Assembly (NCBI RefSeq): GCF_003086295.3
Contig: NC_092051.1
Span: 18,285,940 to 18,349,939 of the forward strand
Length of the DNA stretch: 64,000 bases
DNA from: Arachis hypogaea
Lineage: Eukaryota; Streptophyta; Magnoliopsida; Fabales; Fabaceae
Reading direction: 5' to 3'
Shown here piece by piece: positions 5,208 to 64,000 of the stretch. Below the pieces are notes generated by a model. The model saw only the letters and a program-made list of their open reading frames with translations, ran no database searches and was not told where the DNA came from. Numbering within the stretch: position 1 is the first letter of the stretch; each line of letters begins with the position of its first letter. The position numbers were made by a program, and so were the translations under genes.

Positions 5208-6478
5208 TGCACCACCTAACTCCACTTCTTTTTCTTCCACCTAATGAATCTATGCTCCTCATTCTCTTCAAATCAAAGTCATGCACAAACAAAGGAAAAG
5301 AACAGAGAAAAGAATAAAACGAAGCTAAAGAGGAAGGAAGGAGCTATCCGCGTCAAGAAGATAGGCGCACCACCTCTCATCACTCTGAATCTTCGAAGCA
5401 CCCTTGTTGGGTGAGAACCGGCAACTTTTCTTTTTCCTCTTCTTCAAATTTAAAGAAAGAAATCTTGTTATTCCCCTTATTCCACCTCTGCCATTCTAAT
5501 TTCAATTCTTGCTAGAACAGTGGTAACCATAAGCAAGAACTCTTCTTTTGATCAAGCTGAGGTCGGCCGTTTGTCCTTGGAGGAGAGGCTAAAGCTTCAA
5601 TTCCATGTGGCTAGGGTTTTGATTCAGGGAAGAAGCATAAATATAATTTTTAACTTCAAAAGAGGTAAGGGTTAGGATTGTAGATTAGCTATGGGTGAGT
5701 TAGATGTAATCTTGATTGATGATGATAAGCTAACATGATTGATATTGTTGAAAATTATGTTAATTGGTTGAATTATTATTGTTGGATGTAATGCAGATTT
5801 TTAATGTTGTGAAAGTGTGATCGTGTTATATTTATTGTGTAAATTCTTGATGTATATGGAACTGAGGCTCTTGGGTGGAGTTATGGCATAATTCATATAG
5901 ATATGGTAATGAGTAATGAGGATTATTGATTGGTATGAGTTAGAAACTTAGAGGATCAAATTTGGTTATGGAAAAATTACAGAGTCTTGTTGCAGAAATT
6001 CTGAAACAGATTGGACAGCAACTTAAAATAAATTTTGGGAGCAATCTGGTAGTTTTTACAAGAAAAATTAATTTTTTAATAAACTTCAAGAGGTCAAAAT
6101 TTCTCCGTAAAAATTTCAAGAAATTTGGCCAAGTGGTTTGGAAGATGTGAATTTTTGAACTTTAGTGGTTGTTGTAGAATTTCCTGGTTTTCTGGTTTTG
6201 TAGTATCAACTTCCAGCCATTATAACTTTTGACGTATTTGGCATTTTGAGTTGCTTCCAAAGGAATTTTAAAGATCTATGAGTATACTTTAATTGGGTAC
6301 AATTTCATCCCCATAGCTATTTTGTAGAGTTAATTATGTCTCTTGGAAGTTGGGCTGTTCGCAGGAAATTCAGAACCAATTATTTGAAACAGGACAGTAC
6401 TTCCAATTGACATTTAATTAACCAAACGAACTGCTATGAACTTGAAACTTGTTCATCCTAAAACTTAGGGGTGTTACA
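5208..6478 (+). repeat. 5' LTR, truncated at its 5' side
   Basis: This copy aligns from TGCACCACCT at 5208 with the right LTR from 8339 onward, with many small differences. It ends in GGGTGTTACA at 6478, immediately upstream of the primer site. The sequence before 5208 does not match the first part of the right LTR, so the 5' portion was lost. Confidence 0.85.
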
Positions 6479-6481
6479 AAT

Positions 6482-6495
6482 TGGTATCAAAGCAG
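6482..6495 (+). other. Primer-binding site, initiator-tRNA-Met type
   Basis: TGGTATCAAAGCAG starts three bases after the left LTR end. It matches the usual plant TGGTATCAGAGC primer site apart from one base. Confidence 0.8.
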
Positions 6496-6695
6496 TTCCT
6501 CCTTTGAGCCTTGAGATGGACTGACTATGCTTTCTCGCATACTCTAAATCTTTTTATGCCATACAGTTAGGATATTTTTGTAATATATTCTGCATGAAAG
6601 TATGTAAACATCCATTGTAGTAATATTAATACTTGATTTTGATATATTAAGACTGATCACCTTAATATTGATTATTGGCTGTTGATAGGACTCAA

Positions 6696-7790
6696 ATGGC
6701 TGTGAATAGGCGAGGACGCCCTTGACTGGAGGGAATAAGTGAGGGAACTATCCTCGATGCAACGGCTATTCTCGAATATGTAAATCTTATGGCTGCTGCT
6801 GTACGTGACTCGATAGCTGCTACCAACCGAGTAGCTGAACATCTTGATTGCCACAATGGAGCTGGAAGTAACCATGAGACTAGACATGAAAATTGAAATG
6901 GCGACGAAGCTAAAGATGGATTACACAATGATAACCAGCCAATGACTTTAGCCTCTTTCTTGAAAATCAATCCGCCGCAGTTCAATGGAAACACTAGTGC
7001 TACGCGAGCTGATGACTGGTTTAAGGAAATAGAACGATCACTGCGAGCATAACAAGTCCCCAAAGCACAGCATATAGAGTTTGCTGCCTATATGCTGAGG
7101 AACGATGCGCAATATTGGTGGCAGGGGGTGCTTCAACTACTGGGAAGAGAAGCTGTTGGCATCACTTGGGAGGAATTTTCAACTAAATTCTATAAAAAAT
7201 ATTTTCCTCAGTAGAGTTGCTTCAGTTGAGACAGGAAAACATGACAGTCACTGAGATACTCACAAGTTTGAAGAGTTATGCCGATTCTCAAATGTTTGTC
7301 AAGGAGCACAAGCTACATTCGAGAAATGAAAGTGCATCAAGTTCGAAGGAGGACTTAGGGAAGAACTGTTAGCTCATGTGGGCCAAATGGAAATTCAGAA
7401 TTTTGTGGAATTAGTTAATAAGAGGCAATTGACAGAGTAATGTGTAAAGAAGTTGGTGGTAGCACAAACTAACCAAAAGAATCTTCCAACAAGGAATTTC
7501 AATTGTAACCTCGCTCCTCAAGGAAGAAGCTTCAAAGTAACTCGGCAGCCAGACCTAGGCAAACAACCGCAACTGACCCAACCAAAACTGACATGCACTG
7601 TGTGTGGAAGGAATCATGGAGGCAGGCCCTGTCTGCCAAAATTTGGGGTTTGCTATAATTGCGGGAAGCCGAGACACGTAGCCAAAGAATGCACATGACG
7701 AAGGGCTGAATTTGTTTCCCCTGGGCAGCAACAGCCAGGAAGGGTATTTGTTATGGATGCGAAAAATACTACCGAAACCGATCCCCTCAC
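6696..7790 (+). pseudogene. Gypsy gag pseudogene with zinc knuckle
   Basis: Capsid-type gag sequence is recognisable after ATG 6696 despite stops and frameshifts. An early stop follows MAVNRRGRP. Conserved pieces include ASFLKINPPQFNG, ADDWFKEIERSL and YMLRNDAQYWWQGV (about 6950-7130). A CCHC-type zinc knuckle reads VCYNCGKPRHVAKEC at about 7650-7695. The region binds RNA in intact relatives. This copy cannot encode a full protein, and the downstream pol genes are missing. Confidence 0.8.
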
Positions 7791-7838
7791 TCGAGGTAAT
7801 GAAATTTTGAGGACAAAATTTTTTTTAGGGAGGTAGAA

Positions 7839-9614
7839 TATAAGAACCCTACCTTTCTACCCTGAAAATTTCATTCCTTTCAAAAAAAAATTATGATTTT
7901 TCACGACTTTATATCTGTGTGTGATTGATAGATATTAAGGTAGAGGAATAAAATTTAACTTATATCACCAAATTCAATATTATTTTACTCTGTTTTAATT
8001 AACGGCGAGATTCGGTAATTTAAAAATAAATAAAATAATAATAATAAAATTACCCTTCCGATTCAATTATTCTGTGGAATAATTACTTCTATAAAACTTA
8101 ATCATTTCTTTAGTTGTTCTTGAAAAGAGTTGATAAATGAATCATTGAACCACACTATCTTAATGAACCAAATCCTGAACCGGGGTGGTTTCTTTTCTTT
8201 TGGCCCAACCAAACCACCTCCCACCCAATTAAACCCAACTCTGATTACCTTCTCTCTCAGCATCGTTTGGAACTCTGGTTACACCTCCTCAGACATGCGT
8301 TGATGCTGTGTTAGAAGGAGGAGAAGACACGAAGCCTCTGCACCACCTCACTACACTTCCTTTTCTTCCACCTAATGAATCTAATGCTCCTCATTCTCTT
8401 CAAATCAAAGACATGCACAAACAAAAGAAAAGAACAGAGAAAAGAACAAAACGAAGTTGAAGAGGAAGGAAGGAGCTATCCATATAGCAAGAAGATAGGC
8501 GTACCACCTCTCATCGCTCTGAATCTTCGAAGCATCCTTGTTGGGCGTGAGACCCAGTAACTTTCCTTTTTCTTCTTCTTCAAATTCAAAGAAAGAAATC
8601 CTATTCTTCCCCTTATTCTACCTCTACCATTCTAATTTTAATTCTTGCTAGAACAGTGGTAACCATAAGCAAGAACTCTTCTCTTGCTCAAGCTGAGGTC
8701 GACCGTTTGTCCTTAGAGGAGAGGCTGAAGCTTCAATTCTGTGTGACTAGGATTTTATTTCAAGGAAGAAGCAGAAATAGAATTTTTACTTCAAAAAGAA
8801 GTAAGGGTTAGGATTGTAGATTAGCTATGGGTGATTGTTAGATGTAATCTTGATTGATGATGATGAGCTAACATGATTGATGTCATTGAAAATTCTATTA
8901 ATTGGTTGAATTATTGTTGTTAGATGTAGTGCAAATTTTTAATGTTGTGAAAGTGTGATCATGTTATGTTTATTGTGTAAATTCTTGATGTATATGGAAC
9001 TGAGGCTCTTGGGTGGAGTTATGACATAATTCATATAGATATAGTAATGAGTAATGAGGATTATTGATTGGTATAAGTTAGAAACTTAGAGGATCAAATT
9101 TGGTTATGGAAAAATTAGGGAGCCTTGCTGCAGAAATTTTGAAACAGATTGGACAGCAACTTAAAATAAATTCTGGGAGTAATCTGGCTAGTTTTTACGA
9201 GAGAAATTATTTTTTTAATAAACTTCAAGAGGTCAAGATTTCTCCATAAAAATTTTAATGAATTTGGCCAAGTGATTTGGAAGATGTGAATTTTTGAAGT
9301 TTAGTGGTTGCTGCAGAATTTTCTAATTTTCTGGTTCACAGTATCAACTTCCAGCCACTATAACTTTTGACATATTTGGCATTTTGAGTTGCTTCCAAAG
9401 GGATTTTAAATATTTGTAAGTCTAATTTAATTGGGTACAATCATGCTCATAGATATTTTGTAGAGTTAATTATGTCTCTTGGAAGTTGGGCTATTCGTAG
9501 AAAATTCAGAACCAATTACTTGAAACAGGGCAGCACTTCCAATTGACATTTAATTAACCAAACGAAGTGCTATGAACCTGAAACTTATTCGTCCTAAAAC
9601 TTCGGGGTGTTACA
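7839..9614 (+). repeat. 3' LTR, full length (1,776 bp)
   Basis: It begins TATAAGAACCC just after the purine tract, probably a mutated TGTAAGAACCC, and ends GGGTGTTACA at 9614. It matches the left LTR over the last roughly 1.27 kb. Confidence 0.85.
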
Positions 9615-10655
9615 AAGATGATATCCCGTATTGTTCACATAAACGATATATAGTCTGGATGGTCAAACATTTTGACTTAGGGAATAATAAATCCAAATGA
9701 TAACACCATTGATCTACTAGGTAAAAAAGGTCTATTCATAATGAACAAGAAAAGAGCCGTGTATGGAAAAGGTCAGTTTATTTATAAGTCCCAATGTGTT
9801 ACAAATATAACGGGTAAAGCAGTTGTGTGTGATGTTTAGAATACAGTTACTAATATAATGGAAAAGAAAAAGTTAAAAAGAAAACAAGATATATCAGACG
9901 ATATGAATCTAAAGTTTTTTAACAAAAGAGAGCAAATCATGATGTAAATATATCATACAACGGAAATAGTATTTCATGAATAAATAAATAATCTAAGCCA
10001 CATTGAGAATAAAAATGAGAGGTAATGCAGATATGTGTGAAGTTTAAAATAGGGTTACTTATATTATGTAAAAGCTAGATCTGAAAAGAAAAAAAAGATA
10101 CATCAGACGATTTTTTTTAGTATATTAACAAAAGAGAGAAAATAACAAGTGAATAAAAATGGAATATGAAAAAAAAGCTTCGATTACCAGATCATGTTCA
10201 TGGCTTATTAGGATCCGTTCAGGTGACAACTATCATTGAGAAGAGCTTAACATTTTCAAGCCAGTGCTTGGCCAAATCTACTAGAAAGTTTATCAGTAAA
10301 TATATAACAATTACACATGGAAAAAAATAGAAGATAATAAAAAATATATTTCATACTTTCTCAATTAGCTAGACATGTTTACTGTAAGATATCGAAAGAT
10401 ATGTATACGTTTGTAGAAGCATAAATGACAAATCTTTTAAGTCTAAAATAATGATCATGAGATAATAAGACACTTAAATATCCATATTGCCATTTAAACT
10501 AAACATAAAATGAAACTGTAGTCTACATTAGTAAAGAGACACACATAGCCAGCTTTATAAATACATATTGATAGAAAATGGGCAAATGCGTGGACAAACA
10601 CATCATTTGTTCACCAAACACCATATCCCAAACACATCTCCATTTAGTTTCAAAG
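9615..10655. other. AT-rich non-coding stretch
   Basis: Nothing recognisable is seen here beyond short AT-rich runs. It precedes the F-box pseudogene. Confidence 0.45.
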
Positions 10656-50115: not shown

Positions 50116-51437
50116 ATGGCCGATTTCGTAGTTTTGCGGGATTCCACAGCCTACAACATCATCCTGGGGAGGAAAACCATCAACGACCTTGGAGCAGTGA
50201 TCAGCACGAAGCTGCTCGTAATGAAGTTTGTTATCGATGACGGATCCGTAGGATCCATTAGAGGAGACTTAGAAACGGCAGTCGCCTGCGACCACGCCAG
50301 CCTCTCCTTGAGGAAAAAATCCAAAGAAGCATCAGGGTTGTTCCTTGCCGACCTGGATGCCAGAATAGACGACAAGCCCAGGCCCAAGCCAGAGGGGGAC
50401 CTGGAAAAATTCCGAGTGGGGGACGCGGAGGAGAAATTCACATTCATAAACAGAAATCTCCCCCATGAATTGAAAGAACCTTTGATGGAGATGATTAGAG
50501 CTAATGCCGATTTGTTTGCTTGGACGCCATCCGACATGCCGGAGATAGACCCCCAACTCATGTCACACAGCCTGGCCGTCAAGCCGGAAGCCCGACCAGT
50601 GGCCCAAAGGAGAAGGAAGATGTCACAGGAAAGGGCAGAGGAGGTGGCCAGGCAGACGGCCGGCCTCCTCAAAGCAGGGTTCATCTGTGAACTAGACTAC
50701 TCCACTTGGCTATCAAATGTGGTTTTGGTAAAAAAGCACAATGGGAGGTGGAGAATGTGTGTGGATTACTCCGACCTCAACAAAGCGTGCCCCAAAGACT
50801 GCTATCCCCTTCCCAACATTGACGCACTCATCGACGCAGTGGCAGGGTACCGGTATCTGAGCTTCATGGACGCCTACTCCGGGTACAATCAGATACCGAT
50901 GCACCGGCCCGACGAGGATAAAACGGCGTTCATAACGCCAGGGGGATCTATTGTTACAAAGTGATGCCATTTGGCCTGAAAAACGCTAGCGCCACGTACC
51001 AGAGGCTGATGAACAAGATATTCAGTGAGCTCATAGGCAAGACAGTGGAAGTCTACGTGGACGACATCCTCGCGAAAACCGCACAGCCTGACGATCTCCT
51101 AAGTGACCTGGGGGGCGTGTTCGCGTCCCTCCGACAACACGGCATGAGGCTCAACCCGCTCAAATGCGCCTTCGCCATGGAGGCCGGGAAGTTCCTAGGG
51201 TTCATGATAACCCAAAGAGGGGTAGAAGCCAACCCGGAGAAATGCCAAGCGATTCTCCAGATGAAGAGCCCGGGTTGTATCAAAGACGTCCAGCGATTGG
51301 CAGGAAGGCTGACTGCGTTATCCCGTTTCCTCGGCGCATCAGCAGCGAAAGCCCTGCCCTTCTTCAATCTGATGAAAAAGGGGATAGCGTTTGAATGGAC
51401 TCCTGTATGCGAGGAAGCATTCAACCACTTCAAATAA
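50116..51437 (+). pseudogene. Tat-type reverse transcriptase, frameshifted
   Basis: The first part (50116-50964) contains AGFICELDYSTWLSNVVLVK, RMCVDYSDLNKACPKDCYPL and FMDAYSGYNQI. A one-base shift near 50940 breaks the frame after KTAFITPGG. The second part (50961-51437) resumes at MPFGLKNASATYQRLMNKIF and keeps the YVDD catalytic motif (VEVYVDDILAK), then CAFAMEAGKFLGFMI. A stop ends it at 51437. The active-site aspartates are intact; the reading frame is not. Confidence 0.9.
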
Positions 51438-51455
51438 ATCCTAGCAACACCTCCG

Positions 51456-51758
51456 GTGCTTGGGAAGCCTAAGGCCGGAGAACCACTCTACCTCTACCTA
51501 GCCGTAACGGAGGAAGCACTTGCAGCAGTGTTGGTACGAGAAGAAGGGAAGGCTCAGCAACCAATCTACTTTGTAAGTAGGGCGCTACAAGGAGCAGAGC
51601 TGAGGTATAGCAAACTGGAGAAACTGGAGCTGGCACTCCTAACCTCCTCCCGAAGGCTGAGGCAGTACTTCCAGAGCTACCGTGTCGTCGTGAGAACGGA
51701 CCAAGCAATTCGCCAAGTACTCCAAAAGCCTGATTTGGCAGGAAGGATGATGACTTAA
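51456..51758 (+). pseudogene. Gypsy RNase H domain
   Basis: It follows RT after an in-frame stop. It contains LYLYLAVTEEALAAVLVREE, YFVSRALQGAELRYSKLEKL and YRVVVRTDQAIRQVL, typical of the native Ty3/Gypsy RNase H and tether. It ends at a stop at 51758. Confidence 0.8.
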
Positions 51759-51821
51759 GCCATCGAGCTCTCCCAATATGACTTGTAGTACGAGCCCCGA
51801 CATGCAATCAAGGCACAGGCG

Positions 51822-52214
51822 ATGGCTGATTTCCTAGTAGAGGTAACAGGTGATCCCCCCAAGGAAACGGGCACACGGTGGAGGCTCCACGTAGACGGGG
51901 CCTCCAACCAAACGTCCGGGGGTGCCGGGGTGATCTTAGAGAGCCCGGCTGGGGTCATATACGAGCAATCGACCAAGTTTGAATTCCCCGTATCGAACAA
52001 CCAAGCGGACTACGAAGCCCTCTTGGGTGGGCTAATCCTAGCCCGGGAAGTCGGGACGACAAGACTGGAAGTGTGCAGCGACTCACAGGTCGTCACCTCA
52101 CAAGTGAACGGAAGCTATCAAGCCAGAGACCCGCTGTTGCAAAGGTATTTGGAAAAGGTTAGAGAATTGACCAGGTAGTTCCAGGAGGTCACAGTCCAAC
52201 ACGTTCCGAGGGAG
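51822..52214 (+). pseudogene. Second, archaeal-type RNase H domain of the Tat lineage
   Basis: The piece reads WRLHVDGASNQTSGGAGVIL, NNQADYEALLGGLILAREVG and LEVCSDSQVVTSQVNGSY, giving the D-E-D catalytic set. A TAG at 52176 interrupts it. The next residues (VQHVPREKN) run up to the insertion site and continue beyond the insert at 62702 as TRADLLSNLAS. This join identifies the original uninterrupted gene. Confidence 0.88.
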
Positions 52215-52219
52215 AAGAA

Positions 52220-55015
52220 TGTAACACCCTACCACACTAAGCTTTACGCTTAAGCCGTAAAACAAAGGTGGTGTGGTATTACGACCTCTAAAATAAAATG
52301 AGTACATGTAATAGTAGAAGAATTATAATATGCTAGGAGCCTTGAAGAAAAGAGGAAACAAAAAATCGCAAAATAAAAGCGCAACGCTCTAGGAACGGGT
52401 TAACCTGCGTGCTAAGGAAACCATAACTATTAAACATATGATAACAGAAGTAGGAATAGAGTGCCAAAGATACAAAATAACAAGCTCCTAACTCAGCCTG
52501 CGAAGTCAAGACTGGCCAGAGAATATTTACATATATATACATACATATCCAAGACCCAAAAGTACATATACACAATCCTGCCTCTCCATAAACCTCTAGG
52601 AGGATCAAAAGAACAAGATATGCGGAGAGAAAACTAAGTACATATATACACATCATAGCATAACAAAATAACTCTGTAACCACTCCGCTTCAAGGGTCCA
52701 GACGCCTAACGAGATGTCTCTCGGCCTGCATCTGAAAAAACAACAACATAGTATGGAATGAGAACCGGAGGTTCTCAGTATGGTAAAGGTGCCACACACG
52801 TAATATATAAGGTCCTGGGAATGCCAGAGGCAATCCTAGAACGCCGACACTCAGATTATAGAGCTTAAAGTATTAAACAGGAGCCATAAAAGGTGGTTTT
52901 CTAAAAATATTTAAACCCAACTTAACTTAACCTTAAATCTAAGTCCCATACTGCCATTCCTCCATACCTCCAACTTCATCATGTATTTTCACAGACAAAT
53001 AGACAGATAAAGGCAAGCACAAGAAGGTTACAAATACTGCAGGTAACAAATACACATTTAACATGGCAAGTACATATAGGCACACCCAATTAAAGCACAA
53101 GCAAGTAATTCAAGTAATATGCAGATGATGCATGCCTGTCCTATGGCTGATGAGGCTCATCTGTCGGTTATCCAGCCAACCCGACAAGTCTGAATTGTCC
53201 TTAGACTGTCCCCCGACGTGCATCCCCAAGAGTCTATGCATAGATTTTTCTCAAATAATTAATATTGCTCAATGGGGGTAACATTCCCGGGAATTTATAT
53301 AGTGCCCGGTCACACTTACGTCGTAGGGTCAACAGAGTATCGAGTTTTCAACCTGGTACACGTGGTGGCAAGCCACGGCACTTAATCCAGGGAACCTCGT
53401 ATCTCAGATCATTAAATTATTCATGCCATATAAATAATTCAATTATAATTCATCAACATCCACATCATTCTCAATCGCATCTCATTCATGATCATAAATC
53501 AATCATATTCAATCCCTATCTTTCATTATCACACCACCCATTCTGTCCATCAATAGTTTCGATTCAAAACATAATTCATTCTTTTCTAAATGAATCAAAC
53601 TTAAAACATGCTCATTTTCTTAATAACTCAAAATCAAACCATATAACATTTGAATCTAAATCTTTTTAAATAATTATCTAAATAAAATCTCTAATTTTTT
53701 ATAAAATTTCGGCAGCATCTCCTCTAAAACTCGGACTTTGCCACCCTTTTCGGGTCCAAACCTGCATTCTTTTCAATTCAACATACCCTTCCTCATCATC
53801 ATAACAATCACCACAATAAATCTACCTCAGATCAACAATTAAACTCATGCAATATTCGAGTCCAACAACCAAAATCCAACTAAGAATCATAGTTCACAAA
53901 TCCTAGGCTCTTAACACAAAATACCTCATTATCACAACAACCTCCACAATAATTAAACCTCAAATCAATAATTCACCAAATCATTAGTTAATCAACAAGC
54001 ACCAAACTAACCATGTTCATCAACAATAACATTCAACCATAATTCTCTCCAAATTAACATAACAACATTCACCATCCAAAATTAAAAACTAATTATCCAA
54101 TAAACTTCAACCAAATATATTCATCGACAAATTACTAAACATTAAACATACACCTGCATTCCAACTTATCCAATGGTCATCTAGCCTAAGTTTTCACAGA
54201 ACATTATATATTAAATGCAAGAAACCTAAACCATACCTTGGCCGATTTCCACGTAACGACCAAAGCTATTTATTCAAAACCAAGGCAGCCCCTCAAAACT
54301 CAACTAATCCGCTTCCTCCAAGTTCCAGTATTCACAATTCCAAGCTCCAATTATTTATTCACAACCTAATACACATTCATAACACATATATATCCAATTT
54401 AATACTCAAAGCTCAAATTCAATGAAAATAAAATAGAATTATCGTATCCTCACCTTACCCAAACTTCACATAAGCAAGAGTGAACGTTTCTCTCAAGCTA
54501 ATTGGATCCTAAAACATCAAAAATCAAAGAAATTCAACATTCCCACTTAAAATTCGAAAATTGGGGGAAAAGAAGGCTGAGTGCAAAATAATGAGTTACC
54601 TATGAAATTGTTTCGGTAGAAACGTAGAGCTCGACGTGGTGAACGCGTGGCCGCAAACGGTGCGGCGATTGGAGCTCGGACGGAGAAGTTACGAGGATCG
54701 GAAATTAACGTAAGGTTTCGGGAGCTTTTTTCTCATTTCTCCTCTCCCTGGAAGCTGCAAGCTTCGTTTACGCTGAATGAAAGAAAAGAGAAGGCTTCAG
54801 TCTTCTTAAGTGATGGGCTGGTTGGGCCCACGGGCCCGGTTTGGGCCCGGTTCGGCCCGTTCGGTCCAATCTTGGACCGATTTTCTCGAAATTAGTGTCA
54901 AAATTCTCGTTTCGATGAGCTCTACCCTAATTTAATATAATATTCACATTTCTAATCCTCCTTATTAAAAACTAATTTATTGACTAATTATCTACTAATT
55001 TAATCAGGGTTTACA
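52220..55015 (-). repeat. Left LTR of the inner element (2,796 bp, minus orientation)
   Basis: Read on the minus strand it starts TGTAAACCCTG at 55015 and ends GGGTGTTACA at 52220. It has the same length as the right LTR, so no indels separate them. A purine tract (GAGGGCAAAATTC, minus strand) precedes it at about 55040. Confidence 0.93.
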
Positions 55016-55057
55016 TTCTACCCACCTAACAAAGAATTTTGCCCTCAAAATTCAAAT

Positions 55058-56240
55058 CTAGTTACCTGAAAAGAGATGTGGATAGTCCTTCCGCATATCT
55101 GATTCAAGCTCCCAGGTATGTTCCTCGATACCAACTCGACTCCAAGCTACTTTTACCAATGATACTTCTTTTCCGTGTAATCGTTTAATATTAGTATCAT
55201 CAATTCTCACTGGAATTATTGGAAGTGTTAGATCTTCTCTTACTTGGATTGGTTCTGGTTCCAGGACATGACTTGCGTCAGGAGTATACTTCCGAAGCTG
55301 TGACACATGGAACACATCGTGCAAATTCGAAAGATACGGCGGTAAGGCAATTCTATAAGCCACTGGCCCAATTCTCTTCAGGATCTCAAACGGTCCAATA
55401 TAACGGGGATTCAGTTTCTTAGTCTTAATAGCTCTTCCCACTCCAGTGGTTGGTGTAACTTTCAAAAAGACATGTTCTCCTTCTTCGAACTCCAAAGGCT
55501 TTCGCCTCTGGTCAGCATAGCTCTTTTGGCGGCTTTGGGCTATAACCATTCGACTACGAATCTTCTTTATCTGCTCAGTCATTTCGGCTATCATCTCAGG
55601 CCCTAATAAACTCCTTTCTCCAGTTTCATACCAACACAACGGAGATTGACATTTCCTGCCATACAGAGCCACATATGGAGCCATTCCGATGCTCGCATGA
55701 TAGCTATTATTATAAGCAAACTCTACTAATGGCATATACCGGTCCCAGCTCACCGGTTGGTCCAAAACACAAGCTCTTAGCATATCTTCCAAGGTCTGAA
55801 TAGTTCTCTCTGACTGACCAGCTGTCTAAGGGTGATACGCAGTATTCAAACTTAACTGAGTCCCAAATGCACGCTGAAAAGCTCCCCAGAACCTTGATGT
55901 AAAACGAGAATCCCTGTCAGATATAATGGTAGAAGGCACACCATGTAACCTGACAATCTCTTTAATATACATTCAAGCTAATTCTTCCATTGTAAAACTT
56001 ATTCGGATAGGAAGAAAGTGAGCTGATTTTGTCATTCGATCCACAACTACCCAATTAGCGTCACAACCAGATCGGGTTCTAGGCAAACCTATCACAAAAT
56101 CCATTACGATACTCTCCCATTTCCATTATGGAATCTCCAAAGACTGAAGGGACCCTGATGGTCTCTAATGCTCAATCTTAACTTTCTGACACATTAAATA
56201 TTTAGATATGTGTAATGCCACATCATTCTTCATCCCTAGC
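55058..56240 (-). pseudogene. Integrase with C-terminal chromodomain-like tail (left arm)
   Basis: The catalytic core region at about 55793-56240 contains shared stops, for example in what should be the HPQTxGQSERT stretch, where CAG has become TAG. The open C-terminal part (55058-55792) reads MLRACVLDQPVSWDRYMPLV, FAYNNSYHASIGMAPYVALY, YIGPFEILKRIGPVAYRIAL and ends with a chromodomain-like VAWSRVGIEEHTWELESDM. Such chromodomains steer chromovirus integration toward certain chromatin. Confidence 0.85.
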
Positions 56241-57117
56241 TACCAGAATATTGCCTTCAGATCCTGGTACATTTTAGTGCTCCCTGGATGAAGTGAAAAC
56301 CCGCTCTTATGAGCTTCCTTCAAAATACTCTGTCGCATGTCTCCGATATCTGGCACAATAATCCGGTTCTTGAACCTCCATAAACCATCCTGTCCTTCTG
56401 ACACTCTCCATTGTTTCTCCTGTTCGACTGCTGGTAATACCTTACGTAACGCTTCACTATCTCGATGAGCCTTCAGAAGTTCTGATTTAAAATCATTTGA
56501 AATCAGCAACTGACTCAAACACAGGATTCCAGATTCTTTTCTAATCCCCAAATTCAAACCTTGAAATGCCCTTAGTAATTCTTCTTCCCGTAGCATCACC
56601 CAAGCTGCATATAAAGATTTCCGACTCAAAACGTCTGCCACAACGTTCGCTTTTCCTGGATGATAATTCATTTCAAAATCATAATCTTTTAGAAGCTCCA
56701 TCCACCTCCTCTGACGCATATTCAACTCTTTCTGCTAAAAAAAGATACTTCAAACTCTTATGATCTAAGAAAACATGAAACTTAACGCCATAGAGGTACT
56801 GCCTCCAGATCTTTAAAGCAAACACAACAATAGCAAGTTCTAAATCATGTGTCGGGTAGTTCATCTCATGCGGCCTTAACTGCCGTGAGGCGTATGCTAC
56901 AACATTCTGGTGCTGCATCAGAACACACCCCAACCCTTTCAGAGATGCATCAGAATACACTTCAAACAGTTCACTTGGTTCAGGTAATACCAATACAGGT
57001 GTAGTAGTCAACCTGTGCTTCAATGCTTGGAAACTCTCTTCACATTCCGGAGTCCAGATAAAAGGCGTATCCTTCCTAGTCAACTTAGTTAAAGGTAAGG
57101 CGAGCTGTGAAAATCCT
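56241..57117 (-). pseudogene. RNase H and integrase zinc-binding region of the inner element
   Basis: RNase H is seen at 56679-57083 ([60 protein letters not shown]). A frame change near 56700 leads to [20 protein letters not shown] and the integrase N-terminal zone (DMRQSILKEAHKSGFSLHPG). The frame is broken between RT and RNase H and again near 56700. Confidence 0.82.
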
Positions 57118-58145
57118 TTAATGAATCTGATAATACCCCGCCAAACCTAGGAAACTCCTGATCTCTGTCACTGAAGTTGGTCGCTCCCAATTCATCACTG
57201 CTTCTACCTTAGCAGGATCCACAGCTATCCCCTGCTTACTCACCACGTGGCCGAGAAACTTCACTTCACTTTTCCAAAACTCGCATTTAGATAACTTAGC
57301 ATATAACTTTCTGTCTCTCAGAATTTGCAGCACAGTTCGCAAATGATCAGCATGTTCCTCCTCAGACTTAGAATAAACAAGAATATCATTAATGAAGACA
57401 ATAACAAACTTGTCCAGATACGGTCGAAAAATCCTATTCATATAATCCATAAATACTGTCGGGGCATTAGTTAACCCAAAAGACATCACTGTATACTCAT
57501 AATGACCATAACGCGTCCTGAAAGCAGTTTTCGGAATATCCTCGTCTCTAACCCTTATCTGGTGATAACCAGATCGCAGATCAATCTTAGAAAACACGCC
57601 GGCACCTTGTAACTGATCCATTAGATCATCGATTCTAGGCAACGGATATTTATTCTTCACAGTGATCTTATTCAATTGCCGGTAATCGACACACAACCTC
57701 ATACTCCCATCCTTCTTCTTTACCAGTAACACTGGCGCTCCCCACGGAGAAACACTTGGTCTGATAAAATGCTTACCCAACAGATCTTCCAACTGAGCTT
57801 TCAGTTCAGCCATTTCTAAAGGTGACATCCTATAAGGAGTAATTGAAATCGGACCAGCTCCAGGCACTAACTCAATTGCGAATTCAACTTCCCGGTTAGG
57901 TGGAAATTCATTAATATCATCCGGAAACATATCTGGAAATTCACATACAATCATAATCTTCTCTAAACTCTGATCATCACCTAATACTCCCGCAGTTAAT
58001 AACATAATACCCTGACATTCAGTTCCAGAACAGTTTACTATCATAGAGTTCAAATAGTAACTATTCACTACAATCGGTGCTTCTGACCCTTCCGGCATAA
58101 ACTATACTGACTACTCAGAACAATCTAGCAAAATAGGATTCTTAA
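57118..58145 (-). pseudogene. Reverse transcriptase of the inner element, active-site mutant
   Basis: This is a long, almost intact Gypsy RT (57118-58098): [60 protein letters not shown] and [20 protein letters not shown]. The catalytic FIDD box reads FINDILVYS: the first aspartate of the pair is asparagine, so the enzyme should be dead. Upstream, a decayed LLDCSE-x-SV-x-FMPEGS stretch with two stops is the end of the protease region, joined directly to gag by a deletion. Confidence 0.88.
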
Positions 58146-58597
58146 ATAACCAATCTCCCGACTATCACAGCGCCACCTGCCTGCAGGATACATCGTGTCC
58201 CCTGTCACCAATGCTGAGCCTCGCTTTGCAGCTGATAAGTTCCAAACTCAATCCATTGCTCCTTAGGAACCTGCAATGCCATTTCCATAGCCTGGATCCA
58301 ATTATCTGCATCAGTGGGATTTGAGGTTCCCCTAAAAGTCGGAGGGCAAACTTTCAAAAATGTAGTAAGTGTCATAGGATCATCCTCATCATTATTATTC
58401 CCATGATTACCCTGATTTATCTGGTAACTCAGCACCTTAGCTGTTGCCTGCATAGCTGCAGCCATATTTCCCAGGACAGCCATAAAGTCTACTGAATCAG
58501 TCCCTGTTAGGCTAGGAGTAACGGTGTCTATCCTATCTCTACCTCGCCTACGACCGCGTCTGCGAGTCAACATATGGTCCTTATACACACTAAACAA
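58146..58597 (-). pseudogene. Truncated gag of the inner element
   Basis: The N-terminal gag reads MLTRRRGRRRGRDRIDTVTP, LTTFLKVCPPTFRGTSNPTD and ADNWIQAMEMALQVPKEQW up to EAQHW, then a TGA where a second tryptophan is expected, then QGTRCILQAGGAVI. The rest of gag, the zinc knuckle and most of the protease are missing. Confidence 0.8.
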
Positions 58598-58775
58598 GTG
58601 ATATTAAGTTGATCAGTCTTAATATCGCAGGTCTAATGCTTTAACTTCCAAATGCATGCTCACAAACGTTTATGCTATATATATCAATCAGATATCCTAA
58701 TAGCACATAAACACATATACAGAGAATGCACAGAAGCACAATCAGTCCGTCTTTCAGGCTCTATAGGAACGAACT

Positions 58776-58787
58776 GCTCTGATACCA
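58776..58787 (-). other. Primer-binding site of the inner element, initiator-tRNA-Met type
   Basis: On the minus strand TGGTATCAGAGC is a perfect plant initiator-Met primer site. Its outer base (58787) is exactly where the left arm ends. An LTR should follow but does not. Confidence 0.93.
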
Positions 58788-59858
58788 TAATGGAAATGGG
58801 AGAGTATCGTAATGGATTTTGTGATAGGTTTGCCTAGAACCCGACCTGGTTGTGACGCTAATTGGGTAGTTGTGGATCGAATGACAAAATCAGCTCACTT
58901 TCTTCCTATCCGAATAAGTTTTACAATGGAAGAATTAGCTTGAATGTATATTAAAGAGATTGTCAGGTTACATGGTGTGCCTTCTACCATTATATCTGAC
59001 AGGGATTCTCGTTTTACATCAAGGTTCTGGGGAGCTTTTCAGCGTGCATTTGGGACTCAGTTAAGTTTGAATACTGCGTATCACCCTTAGACAGCTGGTC
59101 AGTCAGAGAGAACTATTCAGACCTTGGAAGATATGCTAAGAGCTTGTGTTTTGGACCAACCGGTGAGCTGGGACCGGTATATGCCATTAGTAGAGTTTGC
59201 TTATAATAATAGCTATCATGCGAGCATCGGAATGGCTCCATATGTGGCTCTGTATGGCAGGAAATGTCAATCTCCGTTGTGTTGGTATGAAACTGGAGAA
59301 AGGAGTTTATTAGGGCCTGAGATGATAGCCGAAATGACTGAGCAGATAAAGAAGATTCGTAGTCGAATGGTTATAGCCCAAAGTCGCCAAAAGAGCTATG
59401 CTGACCAGAGGCGAAAGCCTTTGGAGTTCGAAGAAGGAGAACATGTCTTTTTGAAAGTTACACCAACCACTGGAGTGGGAAGAGCTATTAAGACTAAGAA
59501 ACTGAATCCCCGTTATATTGGACTGTTTGAGATCCTGAAGAGAATTGGGCCAGTGGCTTATAGAATTGCCTTACCGCCGTATCTTTCGAATTTGCACGAT
59601 GTGTTCCATGTGTCACAGCTTCGGAAGTATACTCCTGACGCAAGTCATGTCCTGGAACCAGAACCAATCCAAGTAAGAGAAGATCTAACACTTCCAATAA
59701 TTCCAGTGAGAATTGATGATACTAATATTAAACGATTACACGGAAAAGAAGTATCATTGGTAAAAGTAGCTTGGAGTCGAGTTGGTATCGAGGAACATAC
59801 CTGGGAGCTCGAATCAGATATGCGGAAGGACTATCCACATCTCTTTTCAGGTAACTAG
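58785..59858 (+). pseudogene. Integrase fragment of the right arm
   Basis: This is the plus-strand copy of the left-arm integrase, beginning inside the catalytic core (CCATAATGG). The open part, 59124-59858, differs from the left arm by one residue (YIGLFEIL here, YIGPFEIL there). It shares the same internal stops (after EELA near 58940 and before the TAGQSERT stretch near 59089), so both arms derive from one already defective template. Confidence 0.9.
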
Positions 59859-59900
59859 ATTTGAATTTTGAGGGCAAAATTCTTTGTTAGGTGGGTAGAA

Positions 59901-62696
59901 TGTAAACCCCGATTAAATTAGTAGATAATTAGTCAATAAATTAGTTTTTAATAAGGAGGATTAGAAATGTGAATATTATATTAAATTAGGGTAGAGCTCA
60001 TCGAAACGAGAATTTTGACACTAATTTCGAGAAAATCGGTCCAAGATTGGACCGAACGGGCCGAACCGGGCCCAAACCGGGCCCGTGGGCCCAACCAGCC
60101 CATCACTTAAGAAGACTGAAGCCTTCTCTTTTCTTTCATTCAGCGTAAACGAAGCTTGCAGCTTCCAGGGAGAGGAGAAATGAGAAAAAAGCTCCCGAAA
60201 CCTTACGTTAATTTCCGATCCTCGTAACTTCTCCGTCCGAGCTCCAATCGCCGCACCGTTTGCGGCCACGCGTTCACCACGTCGAGCTCTACGTTTCTAC
60301 CGAAACAATTTCATAGGTAACTCATTATTTTGCACTCAGCCTTCTTTTCCCCCAATTTTCAAATTTTAAGTGGGAATGTTGAATTTCTTTGATTTTTGAT
60401 GTTTTAGGATCCAATTAGCTTGAGAGAAACGTTCACTCTTGCTTATGTGAAGTTTGGGTAAGGTGAAGATACGATAATTCTATTTTATTTTCATTGAATT
60501 TGAGCTTTGAGTATTAAATTGGATATATATGTGTTATGAATGTGTATTAGGTTGTGAATAAATAATTGGAGCTTGGAATTGTGAATACTGGAACTTGGAG
60601 GAAGCGGATTAGTTGAGTTTTGAGGGGCTGCCTTGGTTTTGAATAAATAGCTTTGGTCGTTACGTGGAAATCGGCCAAGGTATGGTTTAGGTTTCTTGCA
60701 TTTAATATATAATGTTCTGTGAAAACTTAGGCTAGATGACCATTGGATAAGTTGGAATGCAGGTGTATGTTTAATGTTTAGTAATTTGTCGATGAATATA
60801 TTTGGTTGAAGTTTATTGGATAATTAGTTTTTAATTTTGGATGGTGAATGTTGTTATGTTAATTTGGAGAGAATTATGGTTGAATGTTATTGTTGATGAA
60901 CATGGTTAGTTTGGTGCTTGTTGATTAACTAATGATTTGGTGAATTATTGATTTGAGGTTTAATTATTGTGGAGGTTGTTGTGATAATGAGGTATTTTGT
61001 GTTAAGAGCCTAGGATTTGTGAACTATGATTCTTAGTTGGATTTTGGTTGTTGGACTCGAATATTGCATGAGTTTAATTGTTGATCTGAGGTAGATTTAT
61101 TGTGGTGATTGTTATGATGATGAGGAAGGGTATGTTGAATTGAAAAGAATGCAGGTTTGGACCCGAAAAGGGTGGCAAAGTCCGAGTTTTAGAGGAGATG
61201 CTGCCGAAATTTTATAAAAAATTAGAGATTTTATTTAGATAATTATTTAAAAAGATTTAGATTCAAATGTTATATGGTTTGATTTTGAGTTATTAAGAAA
61301 ATGAGCATGTTTTAAGTTTGATTCATTTAGAAAAGAATGAATTATGTTTTGAATCGAAACTATTGATGGACAGAATGGGTGGTGTGATAATGAAAGATAG
61401 GGATTGAATATGATTGATTTATGATCATGAATGAGATGCGATTGAGAATGATGTGGATGTTGATGAATTATAATTGAATTATTTATATGGCATGAATAAT
61501 TTAATGATCTGAGATACGAGGTTCCCTGGATTAAGTGCCGTGGCTTGCCACCACGTGTACCAGGTTGAAAACTCGATACTCTGTTGACCCTACGACGTAA
61601 GTGTGACCGGGCACTATATAAATTCCCGGGAATGTTACCCCCATTGAGCAATATTAATTATTTGAGAAAAATCTATGCATAGACTCTTGGGGATGCACGT
61701 CGGGGGACAGTCTAAGGACAATTCAGACTTGTCGGGTTGGCTGGATAACCGACAGATGAGCCTCATCAGCCATAGGACAGGCATGCATCATCTGCATATT
61801 ACTTGAATTACTTGCTTGTGCTTTAATTGGGTGTGCCTATATGTACTTGCCATGTTAAATGTGTATTTGTTACCTGCAGTATTTGTAACCTTCTTGTGCT
61901 TGCCTTTATCTGTCTATTTGTCTGTGAAAATACATGATGAAGTTGGAGGTATGGAGGAATGGCAGTATGGGACTTAGATTTAAGGTTAAGTTAAGTTGGG
62001 TTTAAATATTTTTAGAAAACCACCTTTTATGGCTCCTGTTTAATACTTTAAGCTCTATAATCTGAGTGTCGGCGTTCTAGGATTGCCTCTGGCATTCCCA
62101 GGACCTTATATATTACGTGTGTGGCACCTTTACCATACTGAGAACCTCCGGTTCTCATTCCATACTATGTTGTTGTTTTTTCAGATGCAGGCCGAGAGAC
62201 ATCTCGTTAGGCGTCTGGACCCTTGAAGCGGAGTGGTTACAGAGTTATTTTGTTATGCTATGATGTGTATATATGTACTTAGTTTTCTCTCCGCATATCT
62301 TGTTCTTTTGATCCTCCTAGAGGTTTATGGAGAGGCAGGATTGTGTATATGTACTTTTGGGTCTTGGATATGTATGTATATATATGTAAATATTCTCTGG
62401 CCAGTCTTGACTTCGCAGGCTGAGTTAGGAGCTTGTTATTTTGTATCTTTGGCACTCTATTCCTACTTCTGTTATCATATGTTTAATAGTTATGGTTTCC
62501 TTAGCACGCAGGTTAACCCGTTCCTAGAGCGTTGCGCTTTTATTTTGCGATTTTTTGTTTCCTCTTTTCTTCAAGGCTCCTAGCATATTATAATTCTTCT
62601 GCTATTACATGTACTCATTTTATTTTAGAGGTCGTAATACCACACCACCTTTGTTTTACGGCTTAAGCGTAAAGATTAGTGTGGTAGGGTGTTACA
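59901..62696 (+). repeat. Right LTR of the inner element (2,796 bp, plus orientation)
   Basis: It starts TGTAAACCCC at 59901 after the purine tract and ends GGGTGTTACA at 62696. It is the inverted partner of 52220-55015. Confidence 0.93.
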
Positions 62697-62701
62697 AAGA
62701 A

Positions 62702-64000
62702 CACACGGGCAGACCTCCTATCTAACCTAGCAAGCACGAAGCCTGGAGCAGGCAACCGGTCTCTCATCCAGGGCATGGTAAAGGAGCCAACGGTTGCCCT
62801 CCATTTGGCAAAATCAAGCCCCTCCTAGTTGGACCCCATCACAAACTTCCTGGAATATGGCAAACTACCTGACAATGAGAGAGCATCCAAAACGTTGAGG
62901 AGGGAGGCAACCAAATATGCAATCATACAGGGACAACTGTTCAGAAAGGGACTCAGCCAACCCCTATTGAAGTGCTTGCACCCCGATCAGACAGACTACG
63001 TACTTAGAGAAGTCCATGAGGGATGCTGCGGCCACCACATCGGGGGCAAAGCCCTAGCAAGGAAGCTCATCCGAGTTGGGTATTACTGGCCATCAATGAT
63101 GAAAGACTCCAGTGAATTTGTGAGAAAATGTGTCAAGTGTCAAGAGAACGCCAACTTCCACAGAGCATCGGCTTCCGAGCTGAGTCTACTGACGTCCTCC
63201 CGACTTTTCGCACAATGGGGGGTCGACCTACTAAGACCCTTTTCAGTTGGCTCCGGGCAAGTCAAATACCTCATAGTTGCCGTTGACTACTACACAAAAT
63301 GGATAGAGGCTGAACCACTGCTCAGTATATCGTCAGCCAACTGTAGGAAATTCATGTGGAGGCAGGTGATAACACGGTTCGGCATCCCGGAAGTCGTCAT
63401 CTCGGACAACGGAACGCAATTCGCCGACAAGAAATTCACAGAATTCCTCACCGGCGTGGGCATAAAACAGAAGTTCTCCTCGGTAGAGCACCCCCAGACG
63501 AATGGGCAGGTAGAGTCTGCAAACAAAGTCATCTTGCTAGGCCTCAAGAAATGGCTAGACAGCAAAAAGGGGGGATGGGCCGACGAACTTGCCTCCGTCC
63601 TATGGTCCTACCGCACAACCGAGCAAAGCTCCGCAGGCGAAACCCCCTTTCGCCTGACATACGGAGTCGATGCAATGATACCAGTGGAGATTGGCGAACC
63701 GAGCCTGCGGTTACTTCTAAAAGGAGTAGAAGAGGCGGTTGAGAAGGACCTAGTGGATAAGGCTAGGGAAAGTGCTCACTTGTCAGAAGCAGCACTGAAA
63801 CAAAGGATGGCGCTACGCTACAACACCAAAGTGCTCAGAAGGGAGTTTGAAGGGAATGACCTCGTCTTGCGACGCAATGATATTGGGCTACCGACACCAG
63901 GAGAAGGAAAGCTGGCGACAAATTGGGAAGGCCCCTACAGAATCAAAAAAGTGCTTGGCAAGGGCGCCTACAAGCTGGAAAGACTCTACGGCAAAGAAAT
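62702..64000 (+). pseudogene. Integrase of the outer Tat-type element, partial at window end
   Basis: The first residues after the insert (TRADLLSNLASTKPGAG) finish the RNase H region and then meet a TAG near 62827. From about 62880 one frame is open to the window end. It has an HHCC zinc-binding part (VHEGCCGHHIGGKALARKLI ... CVKCQ) and the DDE core: the first aspartate in WGVDLLRPF, the second in VVISDNGTQFADKKF and the glutamate in HPQTNGQVESANK. A C-terminal GEGKLATNWEGPYRIKKVLG follows. The integrase triad is intact, but the element as a whole is defective. Confidence 0.9.

Follow-up and report, generated by a model that had tools for sequence, protein, structure and literature searches.

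A palindromic Ty3/gypsy insertion with U5 at both ends in the peanut genome, most probably formed by aberrant priming of minus-strand cDNA before integration

How can the insertion of an LTR retrotransposon come to possess two inverted long terminal repeats (LTRs) with U5 at both outer ends? This question is raised by a stretch of 64,000 nucleotides of the Arachis hypogaea genome (contig NC_092051.1, positions 18,285,940 to 18,349,939), which was analysed as a whole and is referred to as the window in the following. Direct reading and self-alignment revealed an inverted structure of 10,477 bp (window positions 52220-62696). We consider it very probable that this insertion is an aberrant product of the reverse transcription of a Ty3/gypsy retrotransposon, which was integrated in one step; aberrant priming by the 3' end of the minus strand prior to integration is strongly favoured as its origin.

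Structure of the insertion and its target site

The two arms of the insertion comprise 3,912 bp each (Table 1) and could be aligned without any gap and with nine mismatches; the pair 56132/58784, which follows next on the inner side, is likewise mismatched. Arms of equal length with exactly these borders had been predicted by an earlier sequence-only reading of this DNA, and the alignment, which is free of indels, agrees with this prediction. Read from left to right, the plus strand presents a reversed LTR with U5 outermost, a purine-rich tract, integrase, RNase H, reverse transcriptase (RT), a gag remnant, the leader and the complement of the primer binding site, and the order of a minus-strand cDNA, which had also been proposed before, was found again. 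Behind the primer-site complement the strand changes, and the sense strand of integrase and then of the LTR follows up to a U5 end at 62696. Both termini of the insertion are therefore formed by U5, and the U3 ends are buried inside. As a control, both ends of one ordinary copy (L005/L011) were checked, which showed one U5 end, one U3 end and the duplication GTCAT. The insertion holds two LTRs only, in inverted orientation, with neither a third, internal LTR nor a second set of internal domains. Since both LTRs face outward, a transcript which is able to re-make the insertion would not be expected.

Table 1. Positions of the insertion, its parts and its target site in the 64,000-nucleotide window.
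Feature	Position	Strand	Basis or remark
Host Ty3/gypsy element left of the insertion: RT (RVT_1), RNase H (RVT_3)	50922-52219	+	Pfam
Target-site duplication AAGAA, left copy	52215-52219	.	Joined flanks stay in one host frame via REKNTRADLLSNLAS
Left arm, 5' part of the putative minus-strand cDNA (LTR, polypurine tract and integrase, reversed)	52220-56131	-	Arm alignment
Reversed LTR, U5 outermost, U3 end (TTTACA) at 55010-55015	52220-55015	-	Alignment to the ordinary copy L005 stops at 55015
Purine-rich tract adjoining U3 in the sense strand	55016-55027	-	Sequence; role as polypurine tract suggested by position
Integrase site, putative template at the switch, sense strand CCATAATGG	56123-56131	-	
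Single-copy spacer between the arms: RNase H, RT, gag remnant, leader	56132-58784	-	
Reverse transcriptase, RVT_1, E 1e-39	57118-58101	-	Pfam
Complement of the primer binding site, TGGTATCAGAGC	58776-58787	-	Word search
8-nt word CCATAATG, present both at the normal cDNA end and at the integrase site; contains the strand switch	58785-58792	.	
Right arm: sense integrase, polypurine tract, LTR up to the U5 end	58785-62696	+	Arm alignment
Sense LTR, U5 end (GTGTTACA) outermost	59901-62696	+	
Target-site duplication AAGAA, right copy	62697-62701	.	
Host Ty3/gypsy element right of the insertion: integrase (rve)	62702-63998	+	Pfam

When the flanks were joined without the insertion and with only one AAGAA, a single host frame ran across the joint via VPREKNTRADLLSNLAS; the joined host stretch, as displayed, contains two stops of its own, both of them away from the joint. 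The structure is therefore a single insertion into an older Ty3/gypsy element, and the single duplication of AAGAA together with the one restored host frame speaks for one integrase event.

Identity and relatives of the inserted element

On the minus strand of the insertion, Pfam domains occur in the order RVT_1, RT_RNaseH, Integrase_H2C2 and SH3_Tf2-1, which is the layout of Ty3/gypsy elements. The gag remnant had no Pfam match, and behind integrase no chromodomain was found by Pfam at E 0.01. From the look of the C-terminus, the element may belong to the Tekay/Del chromovirus lineage, and its primer binding site is presumably of the tRNA-iMet type. The RT of the insertion showed 94% identity over 99% of its length to an annotated protein of A. 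hypogaea. Furthermore, the primer site was present in all 30 copies fetched, a set selected with a query that itself contained this word, and LTRs of the type TG...CA together with a 5-bp duplication were checked in L005/L011.

In comparison to ordinary copies, approximately 970 nt of gag and protease are missing at 58155/58164. The same deletion was detected in six of the 30 fetched copies; one of the 30 (L019), whose pol region was not alignable, could not be judged. In addition, the nearest relative (97% identity, the closest among 40 scored of 1,618 candidates), located on C14, possesses a spacing from integrase to primer site which equals that of the insertion within 1 nt. Given the shared deletion and the matching spacing of the relative on C14, the insertion stems from a deleted, non-autonomous subfamily. 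The integrase frames are interrupted in both arms, which, in combination with an origin from a non-autonomous subfamily, makes it likely that the enzymes were supplied from elsewhere. The subfamily with the gag/protease deletion has been mobilised.

Substitutions that are private to the insertion with regard to its relatives were counted in the left LTR (19 of 2,659 columns), integrase (11 of 1,118), the RT spacer (37 of 2,015) and gag (15 of 624). C-to-T or G-to-A changes accounted for 22 of the 37 private substitutions in the RT spacer and for 5 of the 11 in integrase. Viral contigs were also searched: the LTR/primer-site pattern had no match in them, and six stretches matched the integrase patterns, none of which encoded a relative.

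Position of the strand switch

The primer-site complement GCTCTGATACCA at 58776-58787 is the sole exact match in the 64-kb window. If one mismatch was allowed, two matches occurred (the second at 6482), in comparison to a mean of 0.14 in shuffled sequences. A small LTR-like element with direct repeats at 5208-6480 and 8339-9616 (91% identical) occupies positions 5208-9616 of the window and carries the primer-site-like sequence TGGTATCAAAGC at 6482-6493.

In all 30 fetched copies, a set selected with a query containing the primer-site/TAATG word, the primer-site complement is followed by TAATG and then by the U5 end, so that the order in the relatives is primer-site complement, TAA and TG. TAATG also follows in the nearest relative, which was reached via the integrase region; another large group of copies has CCAA instead. 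Because the word CCATAATG is common to the normal cDNA end and to the integrase site, the switch can be assigned to these 8 nt as a whole but to no single position within them. Judged from the sequence, the range would narrow to 58787-58792 if the cDNA had reached the end of the primer site. The sequence-only reading had placed the switch exactly at the 3' end of the minus-strand cDNA, at 58787. The proximity to the end of the primer site still applies, but only in the form "at or within a few nucleotides". The pairing of three bases (CCA) which had been assumed at the junction has to be replaced by the shared word of 8 nt that became apparent from the TAATG of the relatives. A match of six of seven bases (GATACCA to GATTCCA) does exist, but by itself it is unremarkable, as four sites of the strand reach this value and the site used has the shortest exact terminal run among them.

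At window positions 56121-56133, the integrase switch site forms a quasi-palindrome (TTCC-ATAAT-GGAA, sense strand), which could fold into a small hairpin in single-stranded cDNA.

Homology at the annealing site

The quality of the integrase site as an annealing site depends on the assumed end of the cDNA. If the cDNA is assumed to stop right at the primer site, the site used is surpassed by 21 others in the strand that have three or more terminal matches, and ten sites rank above it with regard to the estimated duplex energy. With a cDNA that extends beyond the primer site by 3-5 nt, the site used ranks first in the 6,568-nt strand. With the 5-nt-longer end (GATACCATAATG), it offers a terminal run of 8 nt and 11 of 12 matches, and no better site with at least three terminal matches exists. 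Three of 500 first-order Markov sequences contained a site as good as this for the 5-nt-longer end, a value to be read in the knowledge that this end was picked after the data had been seen and that the homology is short. If the end position was left free, a shared word of at least 8 nt covering the last base of the primer site occurred in 261 of 500 Markov sequences. As far as the sequence goes, the homology supports annealing, short of proof.

Within the 8-nt word, the base at 56128/58788 is private to the insertion: all 31 readable relatives (28 fetched and 3 further copies, the closest one scored among them) have a different one. With the base of the relatives, the 5-nt-longer end would have a terminal run of 4 nt and 10 of 12 matches, still without any better site with at least three terminal matches; for the 3-nt-longer end, seven sites would be better. 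The 8-nt match therefore presupposes either that the parent had acquired this mutation beforehand or that one of the arms changed afterwards. None of the 40 candidates scored (out of 1,618) proved to be a parent copy with the private base. We lean to the view that the parent already carried it, because the neighbouring mismatch 56132/58784 was left alone, and this would also fit the many other private changes of the parent. Conversion of one arm by mismatch repair is disfavoured, since this mismatch, only 4 nt away, remained unconverted.

Differences between the arms and age of the insertion

At each of the nine arm mismatches, one of the arms retains the base that is commonest in the relatives; the change is located in the right arm in six cases and in the left arm in three (binomial p 0.51), and eight of the nine mismatches are transitions. 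According to the sequence, this fits arms that looked identical at birth and have decayed since then. An age of about 0.09-0.16 million years would follow for the insertion from substitution rates between 7e-9 and 1.3e-8. At six of the nine mismatches the rarer base is also present among the relatives (one to seven rows each), so that two slightly different templates are possible as well.

Proposed mechanism

A single insertion, U5 at both ends, a switch within 58785-58792 and the homology at this position are read directly from the sequence. Most likely, they go back to a virus-like particle in which a minus-strand cDNA had been completed up to the primer site, most probably 3-5 nt beyond it. 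The source of the additional 3-5 nt might have been U5 RNA that was left over, or a second strand transfer in its first steps. With its 3' end, this cDNA would have paired over 8 nt (11 of 12 bases if one mismatch is included) with the integrase region of minus-strand cDNA, and extension of this 3' end would have run to the 5' end of the template, i.e. to the U5 end that is fixed by the tRNA primer. In this way, the second LTR would have been replaced by an inverted copy of integrase, LTR and U5. The product would then have become a linear duplex with two U5 ends, which integrase may have inserted with a 5-bp duplication. The single duplication, the exact U5 termini and the switch at the end of the primer site would all be accounted for by a minus-strand cDNA, whose 5' end is fixed by the tRNA and whose 3' end is located at the primer site or slightly beyond it. 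From these features we infer the particle stage, the exact end of the cDNA and the nature of the template, which was either the same cDNA or a second one. An antisense RNA as template of the switch was rejected, since it would probably not end exactly at U5, a terminus set by the tRNA primer.

The sequence-only reading had explained the locus by fold-back priming of the unfinished cDNA in place of plus-strand transfer. The involvement of minus-strand cDNA prior to integration, the switch at the end of the primer site and the short homology can be retained from this explanation; the restriction to a single folded molecule and the phrase "in place of" transfer go too far.

One molecule or two

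Two co-packaged minus-strand cDNAs may have been involved, a complete one priming on a second, which was incomplete or trimmed and ended at the integrase site, so that both were extended on each other. We give this route about an even chance. Retroviral particles contain two RNAs (PMC3187697), and the RNA of Ty3 is called diploid (PMC5371799). At the integrase site, an overlap of 8 to 12 nt is possible between the 3' ends of two such cDNAs, and a linear duplex with two U5 ends would arise directly, which matches an integration at two ends. On the other hand, the partner must end or be trimmed just at the integrase site, and none of the differences between the arms clearly requires two templates.

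Alternatively, the unfinished cDNA may have folded back and copied its own 5' part, resulting in a hairpin with a loop of 2.65 kb which was later converted into a linear duplex. We rate the chance of this intramolecular route as somewhat below even. The best annealing site is found on the same strand, the arms look identical at birth, and HIV-1 provides a documented case of self-priming by strong-stop cDNA, which is lowered by nucleocapsid protein (PMC4668388). In a hairpin, however, a single double-stranded end is accompanied by a free U5 3' end, while two U5 ends are joined in the insertion. A further priming step would thus be required for an insert with two ends; a tRNA on the newly copied primer site at the 3' end could, for instance, have served as primer. 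Moreover, at six of nine mismatches the rarer base is shared with relatives, which would allow two templates. Both arms were also examined for an origin from one molecule, and their near identity, with six changes on the right and three on the left, would look alike if two identical RNAs had been used. Equal arm lengths fit both routes alike and do not discriminate between them. We slightly prefer two cDNAs to one molecule, because mutual priming of the 3' ends yields the two-ended duplex directly.

Compared with priming on minus-strand cDNA, all other explanations are far less probable. A rearrangement after insertion, in which break repair or foldback replication replaced one LTR, is very improbable. 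Template switching in chromosomes is known to produce inverted duplications, but in this case the LTR would have to be removed at the primer site, copying would have to proceed exactly to the U5 terminus, and the end would have to be rejoined exactly at an intact AAGAA, so that several independent exact breakpoints are required. In addition, the shared 8-nt word leaves about nine possible switch positions in a strand of 6,568 nt. An artefact of assembly or sequencing has to be considered, as the locus was read in assembled sequence, and appears still less probable: the ends join different halves of one host frame with one duplication, the arms differ at nine positions, and a fold-back read would show the same flank twice. 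Autointegration of a finished cDNA into itself, which is known to yield inversions, has a negligible probability, since the inner junction consists of the primer-site complement joined to integrase and lacks an LTR terminus (CA).

Comparison with known systems and significance

Palindromic unintegrated DNA of an avian retrovirus was reportedly described by Olsen and Swanstrom in 1985 and is said to contain an inverted duplication caused by aberrant reverse transcription. The peanut insertion resembles these palindromes in its inverted duplication and in its probable origin; the avian DNA was reportedly unintegrated, whereas the peanut palindrome is integrated.

In cereals (Triticeae, rice and maize), LTR-retrotransposon complexes with a single duplication and three LTRs occur, for which template switching at reverse transcription was proposed (Sabot and Schulman 2007, PMC1950507). 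Like the peanut insertion, these complexes show a single integration, a 5-bp duplication and outer LTRs that are alike, and the rearrangement is ascribed to reverse transcription. They differ in possessing three LTRs and two internal domains, and in a switch between two co-packaged RNAs at R, whereas in the peanut insertion the two LTRs are inverted, both ends are formed by U5 and the switch led, in all probability, from DNA to DNA.

TAR-dependent self-priming of the minus-strand strong-stop DNA of HIV-1 (Guo et al. 1997, cited in PMC4668388) is similar in that the 3' end of the minus strand primes on minus-strand DNA. In HIV-1, short strong-stop DNA primes on itself, while in peanut a nearly complete cDNA would have primed with its end at the primer site, and its product was integrated. 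In Ty3, which belongs to the same superfamily, plus-strand strong-stop DNA pairs with R and U5 sequences at the 3' terminus of the minus strand (PMC5371799). Since this review places the complement of U5 and R at the 3' terminus of the Ty3 minus strand, elements of this superfamily need not halt at the primer site, and a minus strand that extends beyond it is to be expected. In the second strand transfer of Ty3, the minus-strand 3' terminus passes the primer site and is extended again, pairing via R/U5 with transferred plus-strand strong-stop DNA; in peanut it appears to have been extended on a template from the integrase region.

In the open-licence literature, searched by titles and the beginnings of abstracts, a palindromic insertion with U5 at both ends was not described; older subscription papers lie outside this scope, so this is weak evidence of novelty.

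The insertion can be regarded as a chromosomal fossil which probably records, with a resolution of 8 nt, how second strand transfer failed in a plant retrotransposon. It shows that a chromosome has taken up DNA with two U5 ends, with a 5-bp duplication of the ordinary kind, and it provides an estimate of the position of the minus-strand end. The LTRs of such insertions face outward, and the arms of 3.9 kb would fold if they were transcribed through; by analogy to inverted-repeat silencers, such insertions could seed silencing of the whole family by small RNAs. Additionally, the rule for the junction (primer-site complement followed by the element on the opposite strand) enables a genome-wide census.

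Search for further cases

The genome searched comprises 2.56 Gb. The exact junction pattern GCTCTGATACCATAATGG was detected at four places, which are the present junction, two U5 starts that are ordinary apart from a substitution (L043 and L045) and a locus on C13 (L044/L046). The versions of the pattern with A or C occurred at 38 places, at each of which 120 bases were read: an alignment to the element on the ordinary strand was obtained for 16, a further 20 were classed by eye as ordinary starts of the U5 type, two are unclassified, and none of the 38 aligned on the opposite strand. This survey covers only switches that retain TAATG and do not continue with T. These counts refer to junctions other than the commonest one (GCTCTGATACCATAATGT). 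The pattern GGAACGAACTGCTCTGATACCAV (...CCAV) had 346 forward and 346 reverse matches; among the matches listed, six read C or G and the others A (CCAA). The CCAA copies probably represent a second large subfamily with a different spacer between LTR and primer site.

The scan of the genome for the junction pattern yielded no verified second palindrome. The locus on C13 (L046, C13:92789300-92795300; junction at C13:92792331-92792348) is degraded. A sense LTR reaching its U5 end becomes alignable at a distance of 14-20 nt behind the primer-site complement, and only about 220 bp of leader are recognisable on the other side. An inverted partner arm was found neither in the 6 kb around the junction nor in a further 7 kb upstream. 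Among 40 scored of 7,522 candidates, none was nearby, and the nearest on C13 is 0.54 Mb away (91%). It is possible that this locus is an older, degraded relative of the palindrome event; we treat it as a lead and did not count it.

A generalisation, which we put forward tentatively and consider rather doubtful, is that priming on minus-strand DNA is a recurrent event in Ty3/gypsy minus-strand cDNAs stalled shortly beyond the primer site, and that the resulting palindromes with two U5 ends are competent for integration. If this were true, such dead-end insertions could be recognised as a class of their own, with outward-facing LTRs and the potential to form long hairpins, and the C13 locus would be an older member of this class.

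At the two unclassified places of the survey (L074, C15:138622705, and L079, C17:126230080), the primer-site complement and TAATG are followed by sequence which does not resemble an ordinary LTR end and does not align to the element.
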